Source: Bacillota bacterium (GTDB taxonomy: Bacteria; Bacillota; Clostridia; Peptostreptococcales; Anaerovoracaceae). From it: DNA of 21,349 bases. The DNA is taken from positions 1-21,349 of the forward strand of contig JAFYUX010000054.1 in NCBI GenBank assembly GCA_017549385.1. Reading direction: 5' to 3'. A program made the translations under genes and the position numbers. Shown one piece after another: positions 1,950-20,111 of the stretch (the stretch's first letter is position 1; every line of letters begins with the position of its first letter). The notes beneath the pieces are model-generated. The model had not been told where the DNA came from. It saw only the letters and a list, made by a program, of their open reading frames with translations, and searched no databases.

Positions 1950-3179
1950 ATGAAAAAAATATTATCGCTGTTGCTGGTGATGACTCTCGTCATCACGATG
2001 TCAGCAAGTGCAATATTTGCAGGTACCACAAGCACCTTGATTACTGATGTAGCCGGCACTCCATACAGCACAGCTGTAAATTCACTTGTTGCCGCAGGCA
2101 TCGTAAACGGATATGAGGACAATACATACCGTCCAGAAAATCCTGTAACAAGAGCCGAAGCCTGCAAACTTCTTTACGAGACTTACATTACAGATAAGTC
2201 ATCTATTCCTGCGTATGACGCAAAAGCCACCTTTAATGATATTCCTGGTTACGGCTGGGCATCTCAGTATATAGGCTGGTGTGGAGATACAGGTATTGTA
2301 GAAGGTTACGGTAACGGCCAGTTCCGTCCTGGAGCATACGTTACAGTAGCAGAATTCCTCACAATGCTCATCCGCGCAGGTGGTCATGAAGCACCAGATA
2401 TGACATGGCCAGCTGACTACATTGCTATGGCCAACGATATGGATCTCGCTTCTAACCTGGTAGGCATCACTCTTCCTGCTGATAACAACACAGCTTCTTC
2501 CAGAGGTAACTGCGCTATCATGCTTTTAGAAACAGGTCTTATTCCGGTAGTTCGTCCTGCAGCACCAGAAACAGATCCGGTTTTCAAAGGTTTTAGCGGC
2601 AAAGCCTTCGGCTTTGTTTTAGAAAACGGAAAGGTCCTCAACAAAAGTGACCAGGTTGTAGATATGATTACTTTCCAGGTTGGCACCGAAGAATATCTGG
2701 CATTAGCCAAGAAAGACGTCGATCTTGAAAGTCTCAATTTAAGTCCCGCAAGCGGCCTCGTATGCCTTCAGTTCTCAAATGGTGAAATTACAGGCGCAAC
2801 ACCTGTACATGACAAGGATGATGTAAAAGCATCTGACGGCACAAGCATAATGATGCTTACAGCTCAGGATCAGCCTGATCTGCTAGAATTCTACAAAGTC
2901 ACTGATTCAAACGACAGCTATATTTTTTACAACAATGGCACAGACGTTGATTATGTAGGTCTTAGCTCACATTTCATAGTGTACAACTGCTACATGGATG
3001 GCAATGAGTTAGTTTACAGCGCTACTCCTTACTATAATCAGATTGATGAAAAATGCTATTTCGCTGCATTTACAGTTGCCAACGAAGGCAGTCATCTGGT
3101 AGATATCATCGTTTACATGGAACCTTCAGAAGCAGCGGCTATTTTCCAGAACAATCCGCATTTTGTGCGCATCGGCTAA
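1950..3179 (+). CDS. Secreted SLH-domain protein with unknown C-terminal domain
   Basis: The 409-residue product has a Sec signal peptide, probably cleaved after Ala24 (SAIFA|GTTS). Three SLH repeats span about 30-200. Repeat 1 keeps the TRAE motif used for binding secondary cell-wall polymer (VTRAEACK), repeat 2 has VTVAEFLT and repeat 3 SSRGNCAI. SLH domains usually hold proteins on the peptidoglycan-linked polymer of S-layer-bearing cells. The remaining ~205 residues form a beta-rich, acidic domain that I do not recognise; it contains no obvious catalytic motif. The start is set by AAGGGGG 10 bases upstream. The gene has its own promoter and ends in a strong stem-loop. Its SLH module is built like that of the SLH-TolC protein at 5251-7089, so the two are likely paralogous in that part. 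Confidence 0.93.
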   Translation: MKKILSLLLVMTLVITMSASAIFAGTTSTLITDVAGTPYSTAVNSLVAAGIVNGYEDNTYRPENPVTRAEACKLLYETYITDKSSIPAYDAKATFNDIPGYGWASQYIGWCGDTGIVEGYGNGQFRPGAYVTVAEFLTMLIRAGGHEAPDMTWPADYIAMANDMDLASNLVGITLPADNNTASSRGNCAIMLLETGLIPVVRPAAPETDPVFKGFSGKAFGFVLENGKVLNKSDQVVDMITFQVGTEEYLALAKKDVDLESLNLSPASGLVCLQFSNGEITGATPVHDKDDVKASDGTSIMMLTAQDQPDLLEFYKVTDSNDSYIFYNNGTDVDYVGLSSHFIVYNCYMDGNELVYSATPYYNQIDEKCYFAAFTVANEGSHLVDIIVYMEPSEAAAIFQNNPHFVRIG

Positions 3180-3266: not shown

Positions 3267-4055
3267 CTATGCTTTTTTCTTTCTGCCCGGCATATATTTT
3301 GTTCTGTACTTTCTCAGGAAGTTCTGGAGAGACTTCTTATGACGGCAGAGTTTTTCTTCGCAGTTTGCGCAAGAAAGACACATGTTTGATTCTTCGTGGA
3401 AACGATGCGGATACATCTTGTAGAGCACTTCCCAATTGATAAAGAGGATAAGTGATACGATGAACAGAGATGTATTGTATAAACTTGGCATGAAGATCAT
3501 CGGTGTGAACATCATGATAAAGTCCCAATTGTAAATACGACATGTGCCACAGCACTTATTTTTCATCATCCATTCCTGGAACGGACAGAAGAAAAGGATA
3601 CAAATCATGTCACAGATCGAGTAAGCCATACTGATGAGGAACATTACTCTTTCGCCTATAATATCTGCATAGAACAGTCCTGCAATAGCGCCATTAAGAA
3701 TAATCCAGCTGGCAGCTACGATAAGCACCGGATGCTTTGGACCAACTGCCGGGAATGACGGCTTGTAATCTGCTGTAGGTCTCTGGTAGTTTACCTTAAA
3801 CTGTTTCTGGCAGCCCATACTTTCAAAGCTGGATGGCATAAAACGGAGACCCATTTCTAACATGAAGATAACCCATATAATCCACTTTACAATCTTAAAG
3901 AAAGTTGTTGTTTCCAGCTGTACATTTGCAAAACCTAATGCATCAAACAGGAATATAAATGCAAAGAACAGAAAGATTGAACTTCTGCCTATCAGTTTGA
4001 GGTAATGCATACCAGAAATACGGGACATTTTTTTAAGCTTTTCTTTTAAACTCAT
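3267..4055 (-). CDS. Conserved cysteine-rich polytopic membrane protein, function unknown
   Basis: The 262-residue product has about five or six hydrophobic segments (roughly 25-44, 52-72, 109-130, 134-156, 178-190, 195-213). It carries three groups of cysteines: Cys148, 152 and 157 at the end of one segment; Cys168, 169 and 172 (KNKCCGTCR) in a loop; and Cys226, 229, 232 and 237 (CLSCANCEEKLC) in a basic C-terminal tail. The last group has CX2CX2CX4C spacing, which could bind zinc or an Fe-S cluster or take part in thiol chemistry. I recall similar proteins (RIYNWD and CANC..KLCRHK motifs) as hypothetical membrane proteins in clostridia, but no function. AAGGAT precedes the ATG. It lies 76 bp downstream of hslO with no terminator between, so co-transcription with this redox chaperone gene is likely. 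Confidence 0.9.
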   Translation of the reverse strand: MSLKEKLKKMSRISGMHYLKLIGRSSIFLFFAFIFLFDALGFANVQLETTTFFKIVKWIIWVIFMLEMGLRFMPSSFESMGCQKQFKVNYQRPTADYKPSFPAVGPKHPVLIVAASWIILNGAIAGLFYADIIGERVMFLISMAYSICDMICILFFCPFQEWMMKNKCCGTCRIYNWDFIMMFTPMIFMPSLYNTSLFIVSLILFINWEVLYKMYPHRFHEESNMCLSCANCEEKLCRHKKSLQNFLRKYRTKYMPGRKKKA

Positions 4056-5147: not shown

Positions 5148-5176
5148 ATTATATTATATAAGGTTGTCAAGTTCAA
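5148..5176 (-). promoter_or_regulatory. Sigma-A-type promoter for hslO
   Basis: On the minus strand TTGAAC (5171-5176), 17-bp spacer, TATAAT (5148-5153). A second TATAAT (5153-5158) overlaps but is badly spaced for this -35. The whole element sits within the -35/spacer region of the divergent plus-strand promoter. A small dyad, AGCTGT-GA-ACAGCT (5115-5128), lies in the predicted 5' leader. Confidence 0.75.
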
Positions 5177-5193
5177 TCGCAAGGTGTTATAAT
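5164..5193 (+). promoter_or_regulatory. Sigma-A-type promoter for the SLH-TolC gene
   Basis: TTGTCA (5164-5169), 18-bp spacer, perfect TATAAT (5188-5193). The expected start is near 5200. It overlaps the hslO promoter back to back. Confidence 0.78.
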
Positions 5194-5250: not shown

Positions 5251-7089
5251 ATGCGCAACAGAGTAAAACGATATATAAGTATACTCGTGGTTCTGCTCCT
5301 TGTGACTGGCTGTTTTGCACCTGCAGGGGTATTCGGCGCCACTGCTGTAAAAGAGTACACAGACGTAAAAGGCACTATCTACGAATCTGCCATAAAAACC
5401 CTTACAACAGAAGATATTATAACCGGTTATCCCGACGGAACATTCGTTCCAGAAGGTGATATCACCCGTGCAGAAGTCAGCAAAATCTTCGGTACTATTA
5501 TATATGACAACTACGAAGGCTCCGAAAAGACTCTCGTAAGCGAATCTGACATGAAAAACTACGCTTCCGACAGCTTCGCTGACCTGTCCGGATACAGCTG
5601 GGCTTCTCAGTTTATAGGTATTTGCGCAAAGCTTGGTATCGTAGAAGGCTACGGCAATTCCACATTTAAGCCAGGAAACAACATTACATATAACGAACTT
5701 ACTGCCATGGTGGTGAGAGCTGCAAACTATGACATGAGCAAAGTTACCGGCACATGGCCTGACAACTACATCTACGCAGGCCAGCAGCTCAAGATTTATG
5801 ACGGTCTTAAGGATTTCAAACCTTACGAAGACGGCAATAAAACTGCAACTCGCGGCAACACAGCTATCATCGTAAACAACGCTCTCAAGACTATAAAAAC
5901 AGCCTGCAAGACAGGATATGCCACAGGCAACAAAGTAACAGAATCTAAAAATACAAAGAGACTGAGCCTTGACGAAGCACTCAGCCGCATGAAATCATCT
6001 GGCATGTTAGCCCAGCTGGCATCAGCAAATTATGATAACGACAGAGCTATCGCTCAGGGATATGGGGAAAATATTACAAATTTAAATAGTAGTATTTCGA
6101 CATTAAATGAGTTTTATACTTTATCTGGAAAACAGCAAGCTAACATCATAACAGAAGAAGAACGTGCAAGATTAGCTGAAATCAGCACAACTGCACAGGG
6201 TATTCTTATGCAGGGTATGACAGTCAGCAGCATGGAAAAGAGCAAGGAAATCGTTCAATTCCAGAGATCTTTTATCAATAACAATATTGATGCAAACCAT
6301 CAGGCTGACATCAACAGCATCGAAGCTACAACATACCAGCTCTACTACGGCATCCTTCAGGCAGAAGATAACGTGGCAGCAAGCAAAGCAGCCCTCAAAG
6401 TTCAAGAACAGAAAACTGCAAATACAAAGAAAAAATATGATGTTGGCATGGCATCAAAGATAGAAGTTCAGCAGGCTGAGATGAATCTCCTCAATGCTCA
6501 GAGCACTCTTATCCAGGCAGAAAACACACTGGAAAGCGCAGAACTCAACTTCAAGATGCTCCTAAATATCGATTACAAAACGGATCTCATTCTTACAACT
6601 CCTATCAAAAAGACTAAGGTTGAAATTCCTACTCAGGCAAATGCCATCTCAACAATGCTCAGCAAGAACATGACTCTGAAGTATTATGATTATCTTTATG
6701 ATCTCACTGGCAAAACAGTTGATATGTATTCTGCTGGGTCAGCAGATCGCGCAAAAGCTGTTGCCGCACATAGCCAGACTCTGGTTGCATCAAACCAGAC
6801 TTACTCTAGCCTGAGAGCAAACATGATTTCCGCATATTCCGAACTTCCACTTCTGGAAAAGAATATCGAGTCTATGGAATCAACAGTAGCCCTTGCTGAA
6901 AAAGGATACGAAGTTGCCATGATTCAGTTTACAAGAGGCATGATTACTCAGGCGGATCTGGACAACGCAGAACTGAGCCTTATGCAGGCAAACCTAGGGC
7001 TTACAAATGCTATAGCAACTTACAATCTTGCTATCTACGACATCAACTACAATGCTGGCGTAGGCACAAGCAGAGTAACATTCAGCTAA
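5251..7089 (+). CDS. SLH-anchored TolC/outer-membrane-efflux-type protein
   Basis: The 612-residue product begins with a signal peptide that also contains a lipobox-like VTGC (Cys21); signal peptidase I cleavage near VFG|A (29/30) is the alternative. Three SLH repeats cover about 34-215: ITRAEVSK in the first, ITYNELTA in the second, ATRGNTAI in the third. From about 236 to the end lies an alpha-helical TolC/OEP-type domain with the two classic half repeats. It opens with RLSLDEAL; one half has YYGILQAEDNVAASKAAL and KKYDVGMASKIEVQQAEMN, the other KGYEVAMIQFTRGMITQADL then ATYNLAIYDI. Such domains form trimeric periplasmic tunnels in Gram-negative cells. Here the SLH module would tie it to the cell wall, so it may act as a wall-spanning helical conduit or simply as a structural coiled-coil surface protein. 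The beta-barrel strands are not obvious. No inner-membrane transporter or adaptor gene is nearby. Confidence 0.9.
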   Translation: MRNRVKRYISILVVLLLVTGCFAPAGVFGATAVKEYTDVKGTIYESAIKTLTTEDIITGYPDGTFVPEGDITRAEVSKIFGTIIYDNYEGSEKTLVSESDMKNYASDSFADLSGYSWASQFIGICAKLGIVEGYGNSTFKPGNNITYNELTAMVVRAANYDMSKVTGTWPDNYIYAGQQLKIYDGLKDFKPYEDGNKTATRGNTAIIVNNALKTIKTACKTGYATGNKVTESKNTKRLSLDEALSRMKSSGMLAQLASANYDNDRAIAQGYGENITNLNSSISTLNEFYTLSGKQQANIITEEERARLAEISTTAQGILMQGMTVSSMEKSKEIVQFQRSFINNNIDANHQADINSIEATTYQLYYGILQAEDNVAASKAALKVQEQKTANTKKKYDVGMASKIEVQQAEMNLLNAQSTLIQAENTLESAELNFKMLLNIDYKTDLILTTPIKKTKVEIPTQANAISTMLSKNMTLKYYDYLYDLTGKTVDMYSAGSADRAKAVAAHSQTLVASNQTYSSLRANMISAYSELPLLEKNIESMESTVALAEKGYEVAMIQFTRGMITQADLDNAELSLMQANLGLTNAIATYNLAIYDINYNAGVGTSRVTFS

Positions 7090-7111: not shown

Positions 7112-7145
7112 AAAAGCCTGATGCAAAAGCATCGGGCTTTTATTA
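7112..7145. terminator. Bidirectional terminator after the SLH-TolC gene
   Basis: A 13-bp stem with one G-U (7112-7124 with 7129-7141, loop AAAA) is followed by TATTAT on plus and by TTTTTTCTTTTTT on minus. It closes the SLH-TolC gene and the convergent small gene at 7176-7451. Confidence 0.9.
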
Positions 7146-7175: not shown

Positions 7176-7451
7176 TTATTCTTCTACGCAAGTTAAGAAA
7201 TAAGCTTCGATTGTTTCCCAGTCAGTGAGTCTGTTTTCAGGTGTGCACATAGGCTTAACCTGCTTTTCGAATTCGCCTGTTGGGTTCATCCATGGCTTTG
7301 GAACGTCGAGCTTGTAGAACTGGAAGCCTCTTTCGAAACCATACTTTAAGCCTGAAAGCTTGATTGTACCTTCGCCAGCTTCGTTGATAGGATTAAGTGT
7401 ATATAATTCTGTATTTGCATATCTGCTTGTTTTTACGCCTAATTTTTTCAT
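7176..7451 (-). CDS. Small protein of unknown function (91 aa)
   Basis: The product is a 91-residue soluble protein with no signal peptide or membrane segment. It starts MKKLGVKTSRYANTELYTLN and ends in an acidic helix (TIEAYFLTCVEE). It has two cysteines (in KPMCTPEN and LTCVEE) and several aromatic and glycine residues in the middle (KYGFERGFQFYKLD). I do not recognise a family. It is probably real: AAAGAGGT precedes its ATG, an extended -10 promoter lies upstream and a U-rich terminator lies downstream, so it forms its own transcription unit after spoIIR. Confidence 0.8.
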   Translation of the reverse strand: MKKLGVKTSRYANTELYTLNPINEAGEGTIKLSGLKYGFERGFQFYKLDVPKPWMNPTGEFEKQVKPMCTPENRLTDWETIEAYFLTCVEE

Positions 7452-19835: not shown

Positions 19836-20111
19836 TTATTTCTTACCGAAAGCTTCTCTTAAGATATACTTTGAGAACTCGAGATCGCTACGCTTTACGT
19901 AGATAGAATAGCTGTTGTCGAAAGACTTGTTTTCGCTGCCGTCACCAGTAGCACCTCTTAAACCGTATCTCCAGCCAGCGCTGTACATTCTGCGACCATC
20001 AACCTTGATAGAATACTGGATACCCTTTCTAGTAAGAGCACGTCTGATAGTTGCGTAGTAAGACATGTTGTTTGTCTTGTAAAGTAAAACTCTATTAAAA
20101 ATATGAACCAT
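19836..20111 (-). CDS. Small basic protein of unknown function (DUF2007-like pattern)
   Basis: The product is a 91-residue basic soluble protein. It has an N-terminal beta strand (NRVLLYKT), a helix (YYATIRRALTRKG), a strand (QYSIKVDG), a variable Gly/Ser/Asn-rich loop, a strand (SYSIYVKR) and a final helix (FSKYILREAFGKK). This alpha/beta pattern resembles the ferredoxin-like fold of DUF2007/signal-transducing-type small proteins, but I cannot confirm membership. AGGAGGAA at ideal spacing and its own promoter and terminator mark it as a real, probably well-expressed single gene. No function is assigned. Confidence 0.85.
   Translation of the reverse strand: MVHIFNRVLLYKTNNMSYYATIRRALTRKGIQYSIKVDGRRMYSAGWRYGLRGATGDGSENKSFDNSYSIYVKRSDLEFSKYILREAFGKK

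Follow-up and report, generated by a model that had tools for sequence, protein, structure and literature searches.

The window analysed here, a 21,349-nt stretch of DNA (contig JAFYUX010000054.1, assembly GCA_017549385.1), is contig C35 of the genome bin G000, which is 1.02 Mb in size and 57% complete. It encodes a 612-aa protein in which an SLH cell-wall anchor is fused to a TolC-like domain of the OEP family, and this SLH-OEP fusion is quite probably the exit-duct subunit of a tripartite resistance-nodulation-division (RND) efflux pump, seated in the wall of a single-membrane bacterium. The computed evidence comprises the domains and fold of the protein, a model without barrel hairpins, a host without outer-membrane markers, the co-occurrence of duct and pump genes, an operon in relatives that joins the fusion to genes for a membrane fusion protein adaptor (MFP), an RND pump and a TetR regulator, and MFP, RND and TetR genes in the window's own genome.

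A preliminary description of the window had proposed that an SLH anchor is joined to a two-half-repeat TolC domain lacking the barrel inserts, and both proposals are borne out. Pfam searches of the 612-aa protein returned SLH at 84.1 bits and OEP (PF02321) at 71.6 bits, both well above their cut-offs, and the PF02321 match falls in two stretches that correspond to the two OEP half-repeats. Single-chain structure prediction gives the protomer the helical fold of TolC, with half-repeats and not a simple coiled coil: strand 235-238 and helices 240-249, 252-296, 302-320, 325-397 and 403-438 form the first half, and strand 445-448 and helices 462-472, 474-490, 498-561 and 567-602 form the second. 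These are the only two strands in the model, and no transmembrane barrel strands were found in it; a TolC protomer has four transmembrane beta-strands, which form part of a 12-stranded barrel. In a profile alignment, residues 347-606 align to TolC 117-428, and two gaps, of 20 and 35 residues, skip the region of the second TolC beta-hairpin. The NCBIfam model type_I_sec_TolC (TIGR01844) was not reached (49.3 bits versus a curated score of 225.15). Conservation is 0.56-0.62 at the adaptor-facing tips, where G399 and G563 are invariant in the 23 of alignment A1, versus 0.29-0.33 at the opposite end, the least conserved part; residues 341-375 are the best-conserved stretch of the duct (0.75). By eye, a cleavage site of the AxA type is visible in most aligned relatives of the fusion protein. 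Its signal peptide also contains a lipobox-like VTGC, and some relatives have no Cys at this point.

Homologs were sought in a database of 5.8 billion proteins. SLH and OEP occur together in at least 39 clusters among the best 120 of 2055 matches and share 28 to 100% identity with the window protein; a second, profile-based search found no further fusion among the best 120 of 2096 matches. Loci of relatives were tagged by profile searches, and among 13 genomes with the fusion, six carry it in a pump operon, six apart from the pump genes, and one has no pump match. The order in G297, G255, G015, G016 and G250 is adaptor, RND (~1050 aa), TetR and SLH-OEP, with the fusion last, and in G313 the end of an RND gene is followed by TetR and then the fusion. 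The TetR frames are 200-250 aa long; TetR_N matched in the three that were scanned, and the remainder are homologs of these. Where the fusion lies apart, G242, G327, G231 and G002 carry the adaptor-RND-TetR trio and G350 carries RND-TetR at a contig end, no OEP being found within the 3.7-4.7 kb fetched past TetR in these five genomes; each of them has its fusion on a separate contig, with no other OEP match in the genome.

The window's own genome follows this second pattern. Contig C152 carries an adaptor (TIGR01730, 230.9 bits) and an RND piece covering PF00873 positions 2-394, and contig C118 carries an RND piece covering positions 403-1020 and a TetR gene, followed by a helicase-like gene. 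The two RND pieces, which were searched separately, are taken as one gene by their complementary positions, and neither contig yielded an OEP beside the adaptor, RND and TetR genes. The RND is nearest to that of genus g144. The C152 piece is 59% identical to the RND of G297 versus 49% for the next (compared before loci L183-L188 were added), and the C118 piece is 54.6% identical to that of G245 and 53.5% to that of G297 versus 51.8%. The best match of the adaptor is likewise in G297, whose fusion is the tree sister of the window fusion (support 100/99).

Duct and pump also co-occur across the family. Profile A3 found an OEP in 72 of 296 genomes, and an AcrB-type RND (best E <1e-190, a threshold chosen after two groups of E-values had been seen, with at most two RND candidates scored per genome) was present in 73. 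With the two hand-typed lists taken as the same draw of genomes, and split RND genes such as that of G000 counted as absent, both were found in 61 genomes, OEP only in 11, RND only in 12 and neither in 212 (Fisher p 2e-39), so that the pump occurs in 61/72 OEP genomes versus 12/224 others. The genus-level table (33/6/6/47, p 6e-13) is the safer one, because species are not independent. A second, longer RND type (~1120-1290 aa; e.g., in G300, G383 and G143), which matches only ~198-1020 of PF00873, was also observed and is common in genomes without a found OEP or AcrB-type RND; the two RND classes seem to be split by the presence of a duct.

The preliminary description had raised the possibility that the organism is diderm. 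Omp85 was found in none of 98 genomes of the order, a sample in which 85 have a completeness of 90% or more and a contamination of 5% or less and which held only G000 and G002 among the fusion genomes. It was also absent from all 18 selected genomes that carry fusions or OEPs; 7/14 controls were positive in this search. LpxC was found in 0/18 of these genomes and in 4/14 controls. CsaB, which makes the SLH ligand, was above its cut-off in 16/18 genomes; 8/14 controls were positive, four of them above the cut-off. Judged by these markers, the host is a monoderm whose close relatives have SLH-type wall anchoring. In a diderm cell the fusion would be a TolC seated in the outer membrane and would link that membrane to the wall through its SLH repeats, for which the available text of PMC5007114 offers a precedent in OmpM of Negativicutes, an SLH module joined to a porin barrel. 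The Omp85 and LpxC results and the model without barrel strands all oppose this explanation, and we consider it very improbable.

For the trimer, its docking, wall seating, transport and substrate, we infer the following scheme. The protein would be exported, and its SLH repeats would bind pyruvylated secondary cell wall polymer. Three copies would form a TolC-like helical tunnel, the lower tips of which would dock on the hairpins of the adaptor, itself sitting on the AcrB-type RND pump that would drive export. The wall anchor would stand in for the outer-membrane beta-barrel in holding the duct, presumably at the equatorial level of the tunnel, because the linker ends at strand 235-238. Substrates taken from the membrane or cytoplasm would be released into or beyond the inner wall zone. 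Our scheme stops short of a duct through the entire wall: a helical tunnel of TolC length measures ~10 nm, which is shorter than a typical Gram-positive wall, so that the "wall-spanning" conduit of the preliminary description goes further than the evidence. Of its other options, the surface coiled coil is less likely than a pump conduit, because six relatives carry the fusion in an adaptor-RND-TetR operon.

A broader form of the coil idea is that the fusion is a wall-anchored TolC-fold protein that has since lost its pump, acting as a structural spoke or surface coil in wall architecture or adhesion. The fusions of the window, G242, G327, G350, G231 and G002 lie outside a pump operon, as this would predict, and the weakly conserved distal helix end would suit it. 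However, these genomes retain RND, TetR and, contig permitting, adaptor genes, no other OEP of the family was found in them, the adaptor-facing tips are conserved, and the nearest relative is operonic, which makes such a role unlikely. The fusion could also serve an ATP-binding cassette (ABC) exporter, built from an adaptor and two ABC-2 permeases or MacB-like, or several pumps in the manner of TolC, and not mainly an RND pump. Nine unfused OEP rows do adjoin an adaptor and two ABC-2 permease-like genes, but all nine of these ABC-linked rows are unfused, the OEP tree separates RND-linked from ABC-linked proteins with one change, and within the loci retrieved, none of the fusions had an ABC cluster of this kind tagged next to it. 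We regard either arrangement as quite unlikely.

The ABC-type loci are an observation in their own right. An adaptor, two ABC-2 permease-like genes and an OEP lie together at L067, L131 (same contig as L069), L126, L128, L133-L136 and L140. These loci form a tripartite arrangement of ABC type in monoderms, among them Bacilliculturomica massiliensis, a species of the window's own family that NCBI places in Anaerovoracaceae, Peptostreptococcales.

Several observations weigh against assigning the fusion to an RND pump. The window fusion is a solitary gene with promoter-like and terminator-like sites of its own, and its contig showed neither an adaptor nor an RND gene; the fusion is probably a single-gene unit, because a terminator-like hairpin follows closely past its stop. 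With the own genome 57% complete, a second duct gene may be missing from the bin. G226 has no AcrB-type RND match (best E 1.3e-4), and its fusion frame holds an internal stop. In G245, which carries adaptor, RND and TetR genes, the OEP match is weak (E 7e-10). CsaB was not found in the own genome, at 57% completeness, nor in G313 (73%). Because the wall of a monoderm lets small molecules through, a duct is not self-evidently required. Finally, the adaptor hairpin of TolC pumps bears an R-L-S motif, and RxxxLxxxxxx[ST] is present in 5/5 full adaptors of fusion operons. In a comparison drawn from adaptors of fusion operons and adaptors beside unfused OEPs, none of them from OEP-less genomes, 9/12 of the latter also have the motif, and the own adaptor keeps R and L with A in place of S; the docking motif therefore does not single out the fusion system.

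The window encodes a second SLH protein of 409 aa, in which Pfam matched SLH alone. Its C-terminal OB-like region (X) shares homology with SLH proteins whose genes immediately precede OEP genes in relatives (E 4.2e-13), and the protein is a possible wall partner for ducts without a barrel. Neighbouring SLH proteins with the OB-like region, one of which lies in the window, are the likely source of the anchor of the duct. Tentatively, and with some doubt, we extend this to the Anaerovoracaceae as a whole: the wall would replace the outer membrane as the seat of TolC-type ducts, neighbouring SLH-X proteins would pin unfused, barrel-less ducts in trans, and their SLH module would have been captured onto the duct at least twice. 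If true, wall-anchored RND pumps would form a separate architectural class of tripartite exporter.

The features of the window are collected in Table 1. A gap of 178 bp separates the fusion gene from the divergent hslO. The standalone fusions of G242 and G327 are also near hslO (3.7 kb each), as are the ABC-linked OEPs L126 (3.6 kb) and L128 (6.7 kb); proximity to hslO is therefore no distinguishing mark of the fusion. Genes for SpoIIR and a SipL-domain protein lie near the fusion and fit a spore former.

Table 1. Features of the fusion gene and other features of the window
Feature	Position	Strand	Basis or remark
SLH-OEP fusion gene	5251..7089	+	open reading frame (ORF), 612 aa
Signal peptide, ~residues 1-30	5251..5340	+	by eye from sequence and alignment A1
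Three SLH repeats (wall anchor), residues 34-217	5350..5901	+	
Linker, residues 218-234, low conservation	5902..5952	+	mean conservation 0.39; predicted local distance difference test (pLDDT) <50 at 226-233
TolC half-repeat 1, residues 235-443	5953..6579	+	predicted structure
TolC half-repeat 2, residues 444-607	6580..7071	+	predicted structure, TolC profile alignment
Half 1 adaptor-facing tip, residues 395-405, VGM turn, G399 invariant	6433..6465	+	role inferred from TolC
Half 2 adaptor-facing tip, residues 558-570, RGM turn, G563 invariant	6922..6960	+	role inferred from TolC
Sigma-70-like promoter TTGTCA-18-TATAAT	5164..5193	+	11/12 consensus matches; 57 bp upstream of ATG; consensus match only (8 in the window vs 5.9 expected in shuffles)
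Terminator-like hairpin, 13 pairs	7112..7141	+	23 bp past stop; consensus match only (4 in the window vs 2.0 expected)
Second SLH protein, 409 aa: three SLH repeats and C-terminal OB-like region (X)	1950..3179	+	
Membrane protein, 262 aa, Cys-rich stretch	3267-4055	-	no Pfam or NCBIfam match
S-adenosylmethionine (SAM) riboswitch, 79.6 bits	1665-1773	-	upstream of metK-like gene 343-1527 (named by eye)
91-aa ORF	7176-7451	-	no Pfam match
91-aa ORF	19836-20111	-	

TolC-like proteins of monoderm Firmicutes have been reported before (PLoS Biol 2022, PMC8809574, cited here and below for its available text), with 12 examples in S-layer-bearing hosts without the beta-barrel assembly machinery (BAM). 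Many of the genes share operons with two other pump components, the barrel has an omission in the model of the C. difficile protein, and the proposal of the S-layer as the seat drew on co-occurrence, on data for shed proteins and on a homology model. The surface proteome of Desulfotomaculum reducens, a Gram-positive bacterium, also includes an OEP-family protein (available text of PMC4137172), and the available text of PMC4793230 states that monoderm genomes lack diderm-like protein secretion loci. The "undescribed" envelope system of the preliminary description is thus in part a published one, while our literature searches found no report of an SLH-OEP fusion. New relative to earlier work are the covalent nature of the wall anchor, the repeated origin of such anchors and their likely source. 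The 2022 report proposed, without showing it, the seat of TolC-like ducts in one-membrane cells; a wall-anchored duct points to an answer, and a duct that carries its own anchor would make the question directly testable. More generally, it shows how a cell that has no outer membrane can retain or adapt a machine of diderm type. AcrB-type tripartite pumps deserve consideration in clostridia.

With the proteins of PMC8809574 the fusion shares a duplicated OEP domain, export (its signal being called by eye) and a monoderm host without BAM. It differs from them in having an SLH anchor in the same chain and a model without barrel strands, and the term "SLH" is absent from the available main text. 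Adaptor and pump genes lie beside the duct gene in six relatives and on other contigs in the own genome, an operon link that holds for many of the published genes and is not defining there. OmpM of diderm Firmicutes likewise joins an SLH module to an envelope channel, but its channel is a membrane barrel and it tethers the outer membrane, whereas the fusion has a barrel-less helical domain in a predicted monoderm (available text of PMC5007114). Compared with E. coli TolC and Pseudomonas OprM, the fusion has the same two-half-repeat helical fold, conserved tips, an adaptor and an AcrB-type pump; in contrast to these, it has no transmembrane beta-hairpins, bears an N-terminal SLH anchor and belongs to a host without outer-membrane markers. 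Adaptor, RND pump, TetR regulator and duct are also the parts of E. coli AcrAB-AcrR-TolC; in E. coli, however, tolC lies apart from acrAB, whereas six relatives have the duct gene within the operon, and the duct bears a wall anchor.
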